64,000 nt of DNA from positions 310,001 to 374,000 of the forward strand of contig QAYY01000010.1 in NCBI GenBank assembly GCA_003054665.1. The letters are read 5' to 3'. Positions 21,796-40,986 of this stretch are shown one piece after another. Position numbers and translations under genes: made by a program. This DNA is from Opitutaceae bacterium EW11 (GTDB taxonomy: Bacteria; Verrucomicrobiota; Verrucomicrobiia; Opitutales; Opitutaceae). The notes beneath the pieces are model-generated. The model saw only the letters and a program-made list of their open reading frames with translations. It searched no databases and was not told where the DNA came from. Position 1 is the first letter of the stretch, and each line of letters begins with the position of its first letter.

Positions 21796-22086
21796 TCAGG
21801 CCGTCGCACGACCGCTCCGGCGGCACAGGCTGATGATCCCCAGGATCAGCAGCAGCGGAACCCAGATCGGCGCCAGCGCCGTAGCGATCGCAATGACGAC
21901 CGCGAGGATTGGCACGGCGATGGCCGCGATCAGCCCGACGCCGAGGACAACGACGCCCGCCAGCACGCTACCGAACACGAGGACCGCCAGCGCAGCCAAG
22001 GCGATCGGCAGGAGGGCTATCGGCCAAAAATGGGCGATCAACAGCACCGCCGCGGCGACCAACAGAACCTTCAAGAAAGTCTTCAT
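21796..22086 (-). CDS. Small, very hydrophobic membrane protein
   Basis: 96 residues from ATG 22086; the upstream frame is not protein-like. Nearly the whole chain is hydrophobic (three or four membrane segments between residues 3 and 85), starting MKTFLKVLLVAAAVLLI and ending in a short basic tail CRRSGRATA. It has no polar active-site residues. Similar small envelope proteins in other bacteria are linked to phage-shock or stress responses, but no homology is claimed. It lies 83 bp from the preceding hypothetical gene on the same strand. Confidence 0.6.
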   Translation of the reverse strand: MKTFLKVLLVAAAVLLIAHFWPIALLPIALAALAVLVFGSVLAGVVVLGVGLIAAIAVPILAVVIAIATALAPIWVPLLLILGIISLCRRSGRATA

Positions 22087-22413
22087 GCCCAGAGAACCCG
22101 AGAGACTCCGGAAAGTTGCAGCCGGCCGGCGGCGCTCATCCAGCCCCTCCTTGGTCCGTGCGACTCGGCCACCGCACCCCGGCAGAAAAGACAAAACGGC
22201 ACGCGGTGCGAGACACCTACATCGGCAGCCATCCGGAGCTCACGAAAAACATCTCACCAACGATGGTTCCGCCGCTTGTGTTTCGGCCAGCTTCTGGCAC
22301 CTTGGATGAGTTCTTTGAGTAGGCTGCGTCAGGACGTCGATCCCTTGCAGGTGCGGTTCACACGACTCGCGATGCGAGGAGCGGCTTCCGTCGTTCCACT
22401 CTCCCACATTTTT
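22087..22413. other. 327-bp intergenic region upstream of ssrA
   Basis: No protein-like frame is present. The ssrA promoter must lie just ahead of 22414, but no convincing -35/-10 pair was recognised. Confidence 0.45.
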
Positions 22414-22769
22414 GGGGGTGTTCTGGATTCGACCCTTGGTTGGAGCGCGCCGTTGCCGTTCGAGGATGAAGGTTGGCCTCGTTAATCGTCCTTCAAAAAA
22501 ATAACAGGCACATACGAAGAAATGCCCTTGGCTGCTTAAATTAGTAGCCTCGTTTGCCCAGCGACACCTGCTAGCTGGAGCGAACGTCGACAGCAGGCAT
22601 AGTGTGCGGAGCGACTCGCGGTTTGCACACCGTACCTTCACCCGGGAGTTGGCCCGAAACTAAGCGCGTGGGATCGCGTGGTTCGGGCGAGACTAAAATC
22701 TCACTACAACGGTAGACGCGGCGAGTGAAGGTCAGGGGCACGCGGGTTCAACTCCCGCCACCTCCACCA
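22414..22769 (+). ncRNA. ssrA: Transfer-messenger RNA (tmRNA)
   Basis: 356 nt. The 5' end GGGGGTGTTCTGGATTCGAC and the 3' end with T-arm GCGGGTTCAACTCCCGC and acceptor CACCTCC-ACCA are diagnostic. The acceptor arms GGGGGTG (22414-22420) and CACCTCC (22759-22765) pair fully with a G-U at position 3, the alanine identity element; CCA is encoded. The tag frame ends GCT GCT TAA at 22531-22539. By analogy with other tmRNAs (ATAAC followed by GGC), the resume codon is probably GGC at 22507, giving the tag GTYEEMPLAA. tmRNA with SmpB rescues stalled ribosomes and marks the product for proteolysis. The 3' end is tandemly duplicated downstream. Confidence 0.95.
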
Positions 22770-23276
22770 TTTCGAAAGCCCTTCGCTGCTCACGCGGCGA
22801 AGGGCTTTTTCGTGCCCCTTCCCGGCGCGAGTTGACCCCGCTCTCACGGTCCGCTTCGCGGCCCTACGCGGGTGTCGGGCGAGCCTTTCGCTTCGCTCCA
22901 GGCTGAACAACTCCCGCCACCTCCACCATTTCGAAAGCCCTTCGTTGCTCACGCGGCGAAGGGCTTTTTCGTGCCCCTTCCCGGCGCGAGTTGACCCGCT
23001 CTCACGGTCCGCTTCGCGGCCCTACGTGGGTGTCGGGCGAGCCTTTCGCTTCGCTCCAGGCTGAACAACTCCCGCCACCTCCACCATTTCGAAAGCCCTT
23101 CGTTGCTCACGCGGCGAAGGGCTTTTTCGTGCCCCTTCCCGGCGCGAGTTGACCCCGCTCTCACGGTCCGCTTCGCGGCCCTACGCGGGTGTCGGGCGAG
23201 CCTTTCGCTTCGCTCCAGGCTGAACAACTCCCGCCACCTCCACCATTTCGAAAGCCCTTCGTTGCTCACGCGGCGA
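22749..23276 (+). repeat. Tandem array of the tmRNA 3' end plus terminator (159-bp unit, ~3.3 copies)
   Basis: Copies begin at CAACTCCCGCC: 22749 (inside ssrA), 22908, 23066 and 23225; the last is cut at 23276. Unit length is 159, 158 and 159 bp, with only a few substitutions (for example TTCGCTG against TTCGTTG) and one missing C. Each unit carries the last 21 nt of ssrA including encoded CCA, the terminator hairpin, and ~100 bp of spacer rich in GCTTCGC. There is no integrase or other protein gene inside it. Apparent open frames across the array are artefacts of the repeat. Confidence 0.95.
22776..22810 (+). terminator. ssrA terminator, repeated in the downstream array
   Basis: AAGCCCTTCGC (22776-22786) pairs with GCGAAGGGCTT (22797-22807), followed by a T-run to 22810. 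Near-identical intact copies recur about 159 and 317 bp downstream, within array copies 2 and 3. In copy 4 the hairpin is truncated at 23276. Confidence 0.9.
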
Positions 23277-23308
23277 CGGTTCCCGCGACTTCTGAAACAC
23301 GCCCTACG

Positions 23309-24730
23309 CTACAGCACAAATCCCGCCGGGAGTTGGGCCTTCACGACAGAGGGAAGGATCTGTTTCCAATCACTCAGCGTGAGCGTCTTCGTTGTCGATT
23401 GGCCGCCACCGGTGCGTATGTCGTAGAACACATCCACGCCGTTCGTCAGATCGATGTCTGCGCCGATGGCGGAACCCCGGAACACTCCATTCGAACCTTC
23501 GCCGTGAATACGCACGGTCGAATTTGGAGCGTTGATGATGCCGCTGAAGCTCTTCCCGTTGCCGACATGAGTGACCACCTCGCCGGCCTTCGCGATGTTG
23601 ATCACCAGGCTGCTGGGTGCCCAGCTCCCGGCTACCATATCGAGATGGACTTTGTCGTTGGAGTAGATCTGCAGAGTGGATCCGGCCGGGATATCGACCG
23701 ATCCCTGAATATTCAGCTGCTGATCGATAATGATAATGACGTTTCCCAGCACTTTCAGTCCACCGTTCGCCGTGGCCGTGGTGTTCTTGTAATAGTAATA
23801 GGTGGTCGTCCCAGCCCTCCCGATCGTCGTATTCGAAAGGTTCCGACGCGCATTGTCGTTCTGCCCGACATAATAGATTGGGTCGCCCGCACTGGTTGAG
23901 CCGGTGGCGGTCATATTCTGGTCTCCGCCGGTCGGCCGTGCCGGCAGCGGGGGCGTGACCGGATCGGGAAAGGCGTAATCGAAATCCGTGCCCACGAGCT
24001 TGGTATCGAACTGCACACCGGTATCCGTGTTGGGTCCGTTCAAAGTCGGGCTGCGCCAGGAATTGGAAGTGTCGGGTACGCTGTTGGCGACGGACCCGCC
24101 CCCCGTCTTGATCACGCCGTCGATAATCGCGTTGTTCAGCTGGATCGCGTTGTTGTTTGCGCTTCCGACTCCGACTCCGGCGTCAAACCCGCGGTTGAAC
24201 GCCCAATCCGGCAAACCATTGCTGCTATCGTAGCTCGCCACTCGGATATGGGTCGTGGGATCGGAATTTCCCGACTCGTTGAAACTGATGCTATTCTTCG
24301 CCGCCAGCGCGAATCCCGGGGAAGCGCCGCTGCCGGGGCTCTTGGAGAAGATCACCTCCACGGCTTGCTCCACCTCGAGGCCGTTCGAATGCCGAACGCG
24401 TCCCAGCGACCTGACGGTGTACCGCCCCGCGGTCGGGTTGTCCGGCGTCACCACGGCCACAAAGCTGCCGGTGACGTTGCCGAGCGGAATCCCGGTTTGC
24501 TTCTGGGTATTGTCCGTGAGTTCGCCGAGCTTGTCCCGATCGATCGCGCGAGCCAGAGAATCGACCCCGGCCTCAGCCAGGTGGAAAGCTTCCGTTTTCA
24601 TCTGCCCGCGCACGGAGCTTCTGTATTCGTTGTTCACCGTCGTCAGCAGCGCGGCCAACGTGAGCAGGATCACCGTGCCGAAGACGATGGCGGTGATAAG
24701 GGCGGAGCCTCTGCGGGCACGCAGTTTCAT
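23309..24730 (-). CDS. PilX-like type IV pilus-associated protein
   Basis: 473 residues. The N-terminus RRGSALITAIVFGTVILLTLAALLTT, followed by YRSSVRGQMKTEAFHLAEAGVDSLARA, is the PilX_N pattern (a basic residue, then a membrane helix, then AEAG), but without a canonical G/FTLxE cleavage site. The long remainder is a Gly/Asn/Thr-rich beta-type domain with no catalytic motif (repeats such as NTTIGRAGTTTYYYYKNTTAT). Its start codon overlaps the stop of the upstream gene (ATGA, 24727-24730), indicating translational coupling. It is probably a minor pilin or pseudopilus tip component. It is much longer than PilX of Pseudomonas or Neisseria. Confidence 0.7.
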   Translation of the reverse strand: MKLRARRGSALITAIVFGTVILLTLAALLTTVNNEYRSSVRGQMKTEAFHLAEAGVDSLARAIDRDKLGELTDNTQKQTGIPLGNVTGSFVAVVTPDNPTAGRYTVRSLGRVRHSNGLEVEQAVEVIFSKSPGSGASPGFALAAKNSISFNESGNSDPTTHIRVASYDSSNGLPDWAFNRGFDAGVGVGSANNNAIQLNNAIIDGVIKTGGGSVANSVPDTSNSWRSPTLNGPNTDTGVQFDTKLVGTDFDYAFPDPVTPPLPARPTGGDQNMTATGSTSAGDPIYYVGQNDNARRNLSNTTIGRAGTTTYYYYKNTTATANGGLKVLGNVIIIIDQQLNIQGSVDIPAGSTLQIYSNDKVHLDMVAGSWAPSSLVINIAKAGEVVTHVGNGKSFSGIINAPNSTVRIHGEGSNGVFRGSAIGADIDLTNGVDVFYDIRTGGGQSTTKTLTLSDWKQILPSVVKAQLPAGFVL

Positions 24731-40789: not shown

Positions 40790-40876
40790 GGGAAGGCGAA
40801 GGGCTGAAAGAAAAGGTCCGGAGGGTCAGTCGTGCTCCGGCATCGCTCGAGCGCAGGAAACCTGCTAGCCGCCGTG

Positions 40877-40986
40877 CCCTTCAGCCCTTCAGCCCTTCAG
40901 CCCTTCAGCCCTTCAGCCCTTCAGCCCTTCAGCCCTTCAGCCCTTCAGCCCTTCAGCCCTTCAGCCCTTCAGCCCTTCAGCCCTTC
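40877..40986. repeat. Octanucleotide tandem repeat (CCCTTCAG, 13.75 copies)
   Basis: CCCTTCAG is repeated perfectly 13 times from 40877 to 40980, followed by a partial CCCTTC. The minus-strand YihY/BrkB gene terminates inside the array: its stop TGA (40977-40979) is supplied by the first repeat unit met on that strand. The repeat lies between two convergent genes. Confidence 0.95.

Follow-up and report, generated by a model that had tools for sequence, protein, structure and literature searches.

The tandem array behind ssrA

The tmRNA gene ssrA of Opitutaceae bacterium EW11 is followed by a tandem array of short units, whose layout recurs behind tRNA and tmRNA genes and whose two copies of the gene 3' end, one direct (tail) and one inverted (anti-tail), match the gene that hosts them. 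The best explanation, in which we place about half of our confidence, is that these are tandem units of the tRNA-linked repeat (TLR) type on ssrA that may be maintained and amplified at the DNA level. All positions refer to the window, the whole 64,000-nt stretch of DNA analysed here, and the features of the array are on its plus strand.

ssrA (22414-22769), encoding the tag GTYEEMPLAA, was identified by ARAGORN and by the Rfam tmRNA model (152 bits). Its last 21 nt, the tail from the T-loop to CCA (22749-22769), are repeated downstream in three identical copies, the host gene being a tmRNA, not a tRNA or rRNA. Unit 1 (22770-22928, 159 bp) is closed by the first tail copy (22908-22928), followed by unit 2 (22929-23086, 158 bp; tail copy 23066-23086) and unit 3 (23087-23245, 159 bp; tail copy 23225-23245), both with an intact terminator, and by unit 4 (23246-23276), consisting only of a 31-nt start with a broken terminator. 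The tandem duplication of the 21-nt gene end, terminator and spacer, as described in the initial annotation, is thus real, and the proposed 159-bp period with about 3.3 copies and few substitutions was borne out by the alignment of the units and by Tandem Repeats Finder (22749-23276; period 159, 3.3 copies, 98% matches). The units are not carbon copies, because a C/T difference in the terminator loop separates unit 1 from units 2-4, and unit 2 carries a 1-nt deletion and a C/T difference of its own. These unit-specific differences, together with analogous arrays elsewhere, argue against an assembly error as the source of the array. Identical units at many unrelated loci, which the initial annotation had named as a sign against its reading, are absent from the genome, in which the only other matches to the window unit at E <= 0.001 were two core copies behind tRNA-Arg(UCU). 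On the minus strand, two open frames that contain WWRWREL motifs, 82 and 106 aa long, span the array (22704-23269); they cross it because two of the three unit lengths are divisible by three, and are probably spurious.

Organisation of the unit

Each unit has the order of terminator, anti-tail, palindromic core and copy of the host gene 3' tail. Besides the 21-nt tail and the terminator, the sequence repeated from unit to unit comprises a core of about 90 nt. The terminator hairpin of unit 1 was located at 22774-22809 by folding, and the hairpins of units 1-3 gave energies of -29.2, -26.7 and -26.7 kcal/mol, respectively, while the truncated fourth adopts another fold; a consensus terminator scan with a loop limit of 8 nt listed no terminator in the array. 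The stacking of terminators suggested earlier is right as a description, with intact hairpins in units 2 and 3 and a broken fourth. The anti-tail GGCGCGAGTTG (22824-22834), standing just before the core, is an inverted copy of the tail CAACTCCCGCC, with pairing at 10 of 11 positions, and precedes the core stem CCCGC...GCGGG with its inner hairpin (22837-22872), both as evidenced in the fold and in the alignment of class II, the core subtype of the window, whose stem end is GCGGGTGTC. The stem pair between columns 16 and 98 of this alignment varies with the host, being A-U in three, G-C in two and C-G in one of the six sequences. In the fold of the window unit, GGCG.GAGTTG pairs with CAACTC.CGCC to form a 10-bp closing stem, and such a stem was present in about 34 of 49 folded elements, a rough count given that some elements, such as HTCC_Val_u1 and L114, were anchored at the wrong motif.

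Recurrence of the units in the same genome

Analogous units were found in the same genome at the tRNA genes for Arg(UCU), His and Met and at two tRNA-Glu genes, as well as with a tRNA-Ser tail; two arrays situated at contig ends were among those matched by a model. A survey of its 48 RNA genes (47 tRNAs and ssrA) for an exact copy of the 16-nt 3' end within 1.5 kb returned a downstream copy for five genes, ssrA, Arg(UCU), Glu(CUC), Glu(UUC) and Pro(GGG), and an upstream copy for none; five of 48 is a minimum, because eight genes sit within about 220 nt of a downstream contig end. The Arg(UCU) array has units of 118, 117 and 118 bp, the tail copies of Glu(CUC) and Glu(UUC) are located at distances of 180 and 176, and that of Pro(GGG), where the intervening sequence is a different one, at 692.

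Two models were used for searching. R1, representing the commoner class and built from eight same-family and nine gammaproteobacterial units without any from E. coli, gave eight matches in this genome at E <= 0.01, of which two, carrying a tRNA-Ser tail, were at a contig end, one had a tRNA-Met tail, one was behind tRNA-Met, one behind tRNA-His and three behind two tRNA-Glu genes. R2, representing the class of the window and built from six sequences including the ssrA and Arg arrays, matched only these two arrays in the same genome (three and four matches, respectively; E <= 0.001), and had matches in two of 61 same-family genomes, this one and one more. The R2 search applied strict filters and scored at most 67 candidates per genome (67 of 4795 first-look candidates in this genome), and at that sensitivity the few matches suggest that the class of the window is rare and is not a dispersed palindrome.

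Other sequences were observed at tRNA 3' ends. What appears by eye to be a decayed unit, similar to those of the tRNA-Arg array and carrying an Arg-like tail, is located 3' of tRNA-Asp(GUC) (L047). A dispersed sequence starting GGATCTACACCAAAGTTTGGGGACAG is present 3' of eleven tRNA genes of the same genome and at eight contig ends just behind tRNA genes (sites include the G000 contig ends, L043, L056, L058, L061, L068, L074 and L086), and in the tRNA-His unit it stands between two copies of the unit start; it may be a transposon end targeting tRNA trailers. Taking the eight contig ends behind tRNAs as unresolved tail arrays proved to be wrong, as the ends enter another dispersed sequence.

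Surveys in other genomes

Among relatives, a tail copy was found downstream of three of 37 genes and upstream of none (16-nt tail, up to one mismatch, 1.5 kb), and in strain HTCC2080 within 400 nt downstream of three of 32 genes and again upstream of none (13-nt tail, up to one mismatch). The surveyed unit lengths were 117-189 nt with a single exception of 692. Scanning one genome per species for two tmRNA tails 117-177 nt apart, a spacing at which longer units are invisible, provided 79 ssrA stretches with units of 120-174 nt. ARAGORN placed the tmRNA end at the first tail in 59 of them, and roughly half of the remaining 20 stretches are too short on the upstream side. According to the record titles, many of the 79 belong to gamma- and betaproteobacteria, with Acidobacteria, Verrucomicrobia, Omnitrophota, Planctomycetota, Actinobacteria and others also represented; single odd placements may be contamination because most of the stretches are from metagenome bins. 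The identity run up to CCA was 16-25 nt in 76 of the 79, most of the last 16 nt having been fixed by the scan pattern, and a simple scan found a terminator-like hairpin on both sides of the core in only 36 of 79. The closest class II units are L107, L109 and L128.

A blind search, made without reference to tRNAs, was also run for GATGAGAACC-loop-GGTTCGA, the core motif of the commoner class. This motif was present in 16 of 61 same-family and 11 of 114 gammaproteobacterial genomes, and a reversed-pattern control gave no match in either set. Examination of 30 of the 33 listed same-family matches and all 18 gammaproteobacterial ones yielded 46 distinct occurrences, 37 of which are located within 700 nt 3' of a tRNA on the same strand (26 of them within 100 nt), whereas no occurrence is found at up to 700 nt on the 5' side of a same-strand tRNA. 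An exact 16-nt tail copy of that tRNA follows within 260 nt in 22 of the 37 tRNA-linked occurrences, and the tRNAs concerned include those for Ser, Met, Gln, Glu, His, Pro and Tyr; some of the nine other occurrences end in a tRNA-like tail and some are seemingly due to chance. The motif was rare in viral contigs, with one of 27 matches behind a tRNA, and plasmids gave no match to the window array.

The anti-tail is matched to the host gene

Over 30 distinct tail/anti-tail pairs, the anti-tail paired with the tail of its own host at a mean of 6.3 of 10 positions (tRNA positions 63-72), compared to 4.6 with shuffled hosts, and none of 20,000 permutations was as good, a result that is not a strict probability because many of the pairs have a common host type. 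Pairing was good at tRNA positions 61-68 and weaker beyond. An alignment of 17 sequences pointed in the same direction, the tail/anti-tail stem being 86.9% paired compared to 71.9% after shuffling (0 of 500 shuffles) and having a covariation score of 0.410 compared to 0.162 (0 of 500), and slid versions of the stem were lower in both. Two of the five covariation measures did not rise above the shuffles, namely the pairs changed on both sides (5 vs 4.8, reached in 405 of 500 shuffles; one slid version also gave 5) and the further pair types in the stem (14 vs 12.4, reached in 115 of 500). A shuffle test of the anti-tail on the 79 ssrA stretches gave a weak signal, with eight at p<0.05.

This match bears on whether the array could have arisen neutrally, through slippage or unequal exchange that duplicated a local stretch in tandem, with no special element involved. 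The 98% likeness of the units and the partial last copy are what slippage could leave, but the same layout recurs in other genomes behind genes for tRNA and tmRNA, in 79 other stretches and at several tRNA genes, with an inverted tail matched to the host. Slippage alone, which the initial annotation had put forward as an alternative, is thus improbable, although copy number has likely changed later through recombination between units.

Comparison with attachment sites

The other origin proposed in the initial annotation, that the copies are remnant att sites of integrative elements which inserted at ssrA and were then lost, was also considered. As at the att sites of tyrosine integrases in tRNA and tmRNA genes, the 3' end of the gene is duplicated, and the duplicates span T-loop to CCA, a boundary like that of integrase att cores. 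ssrA is moreover an island site in a genome of the same family (G019), where a Pfam-confirmed integrase adjoins ssrA (L031:3211-4599) and another ssrA tail is located about 5 kb away. However, the old flank is expected after the distal att site of an island, whereas each tail copy in the array leads into the same terminator and core, repeated in every full unit of about 159 bp, and unit length in the surveys stays within 117-189 nt apart from the one exception. The rarity of the commoner core motif in viral contigs and the absence of plasmid matches likewise speak against mobile elements of this kind. The genome has ten matches to the tyrosine integrase family PF00589, none of them on the contig of the window (C2), confirming for this integrase type the absence noted earlier. 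Att remnants were rejected as the main reading, since no PF00589 match is on the contig and a true ssrA island looks different, and we consider them very improbable; a more distant att-like origin of the units is possible. For annotation, a copy of the tail found 120-190 nt behind a tRNA gene should not be taken as an att site where no integrase is present. In another genome (G018, L029), two ssrA tail copies were observed on a 5.1-kb contig at a distance of about 3.3 kb from each other, with a 726-aa open frame between them that is outer-membrane-receptor-like by eye.

Relationship to known repeats

The array looks like a divergent variant of the tRNA-linked repeats. This class was named in E. 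coli, with 22 TLRs at ten loci that each end in 18-19 bp identical to the upstream gene, as given in excerpts of PMC8144298. With three full units and a truncated one, on the same strand and directly downstream of the gene, the array falls within the one to five units per locus that characterise TLRs. Like the E. coli TLRs (which include the 178-bp tyrT/tyrV repeat, rtT/RttR), it is a tandem run of units that follows a stable RNA gene directly, and each unit is closed by an exact copy of the gene 3' end and contains an anti-tail, a core stem and side hairpins. Unlike them, it has a tmRNA host, a terminator inside each unit and a class II core, and it belongs to a different bacterial family. 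In E. coli, R1 detected the four tyrT/tyrV repeats, with E between 8e-15 and 3e-13, and a portion of the rrnB repeat (E 9e-4), but it missed the window array, where its best match (E 0.61) was on the ssrA tail itself. Homology of the array to the E. coli TLRs therefore rests on layout, and we call it divergent TLR-type, not a proven TLR, because layout and tail are common to both while the sequence-structure test failed. In Rfam, only tmRNA reached its gathering score at 22000-23600, and the rtT family (which we take to be RF00391) did not; over the downstream unit of 12 other loci, no family reached its score. Scores for P6 and the permuted tmRNA were below the gathering cut-offs and were ascribed to tail similarity, and TwoAYGGAY, tried for GGA loops, was dropped as it had no match.

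The RrA, RrB and RrF TLRs of the E. coli rrn operons likewise follow a stable RNA gene, with a terminator on either side, but have a 5S rRNA host and one TLR per operon, and are reported in the same excerpts to be expressed and to bind Hfq and CsrA (PMC8144298). They are conserved within Enterobacteriales, TLRs as a class are described there as having no known function, and the phenotype originally attributed to a tyrT repeat has been withdrawn (PMC8144298). An excerpt of PMC5968721 mentions an rtT sRNA inserted in E. coli J53, apparently relative to MG1655, which fits a change in copy number. REP, BIME and REPIN sequences are also short palindromic non-coding DNA, and part of PMC2965389 describes some BIME-borne attenuators as similar to rtT; TLR-type units differ in being tied to RNA-gene 3' ends and in having host-matched ends, and the many dispersed intergenic copies typical of REP and BIME were not found in this genome at E <= 0.001. 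The host-matched stem of tail and anti-tail is a feature from the present analysis, outside the TLR definition in the published excerpts. As far as open-licence papers were searched, the spread beyond Enterobacteriales, the tmRNA host and the host-covarying inverted tail are new.

DNA-level element or small RNA

As the gene 3' end is copied at the close of each unit, recombination from tail to tail could gain or lose whole units and leave the gene intact. The direct repeats would homogenise the tail, and fold-back copying at the palindrome may homogenise the anti-tail, for which quasipalindrome repair is the model; with both homogenised, a unit would become adapted to its host. Each unit would, as a by-product, put an extra terminator behind ssrA, and read-through past the first terminator might give structured RNA pieces with a tail like that of tmRNA, in the manner reported for RrA, RrB and RrF of E. 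coli.

Whether the hairpins are under selection as RNA was addressed with mispairs, counting G-T against A-C in stems found by a strand-neutral rule. TLR cores gave 10:16 (3:3 behind tRNAs and 7:13 behind ssrA), compared to 42:2 in T1 terminators from these loci (Fisher p 2e-7), 32:9 in the T2 terminators and 36:33 in background stretches; the G-T excess of T1 and T2 is as expected from selected RNA. With stems of at least 7 pairs, the TLRs gave 6:4 and T1 still 42:2. The tmRNA body, a true RNA, gave only 44:33 (13:16 with longer stems), so that the test is clear for terminators and weak for other RNA folds, and the TLR result comprises only 26 informative mispairs. The missing G-U excess in TLR hairpins thus leans, not decisively, towards a DNA-level element. 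Folding energies did not differ between strands in tRNA units (24 units, p 0.56), while ssrA units folded better on the untranscribed strand (66 units, p 9e-6) and the 80 nt after tail copies on the transcribed one (74, p 0.008), speaking against strong selection on an RNA fold.

The units may instead act as small RNAs like E. coli RrA, RrB and RrF, perhaps as sponges of CsrA-like proteins in proteobacteria. This is consistent with the E. coli precedent of expressed, Hfq- and CsrA-binding RNAs between dual terminators, with the mean folding z of -2.5 over 49 elements and with GGA loops occurring more often on the transcribed strand (12 of 94 vs 2 of 90; 37 of 176 vs 15 of 180). Covariation has been published for the RNA of the tyrT repeat, where an added helix frames a tandem GA, although one proposed helix is without support in the excerpted text (PMC8250186). 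Against this stand the mispair and strand results, with the reservations given above, and the excerpts of PMC8144298, in which 19 TLRs of tRNA operons have scores below 0.01 for CsrA binding and TLR deletions had modest effects, the function being not known. Such a role is possible but rather unlikely on this analogy, while we hold a DNA-level element, with terminator stacking as its by-product, at evenly balanced confidence.

More broadly, TLRs could be cross-phylum tiny DNA elements on the 3' ends of stable RNAs, with direct and inverted copies of the host tail that are continually re-matched, spreading without harm to the gene, a generalisation that we offer tentatively and consider doubtful at present. 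Such repeats have been known in E. coli since 1978, and the question of the function of tyrT-type repeats dates from that year; the tmRNA and tRNA units in the same family and in non-enteric gammaproteobacteria, with their host-covarying inverted tail, provide a large comparative data set and clear tests of DNA-level versus RNA-level function. Elsewhere in the window, at 40876-40986, a perfect 8-bp tandem repeat, GCCCTTCA, was observed in 13.9 copies.
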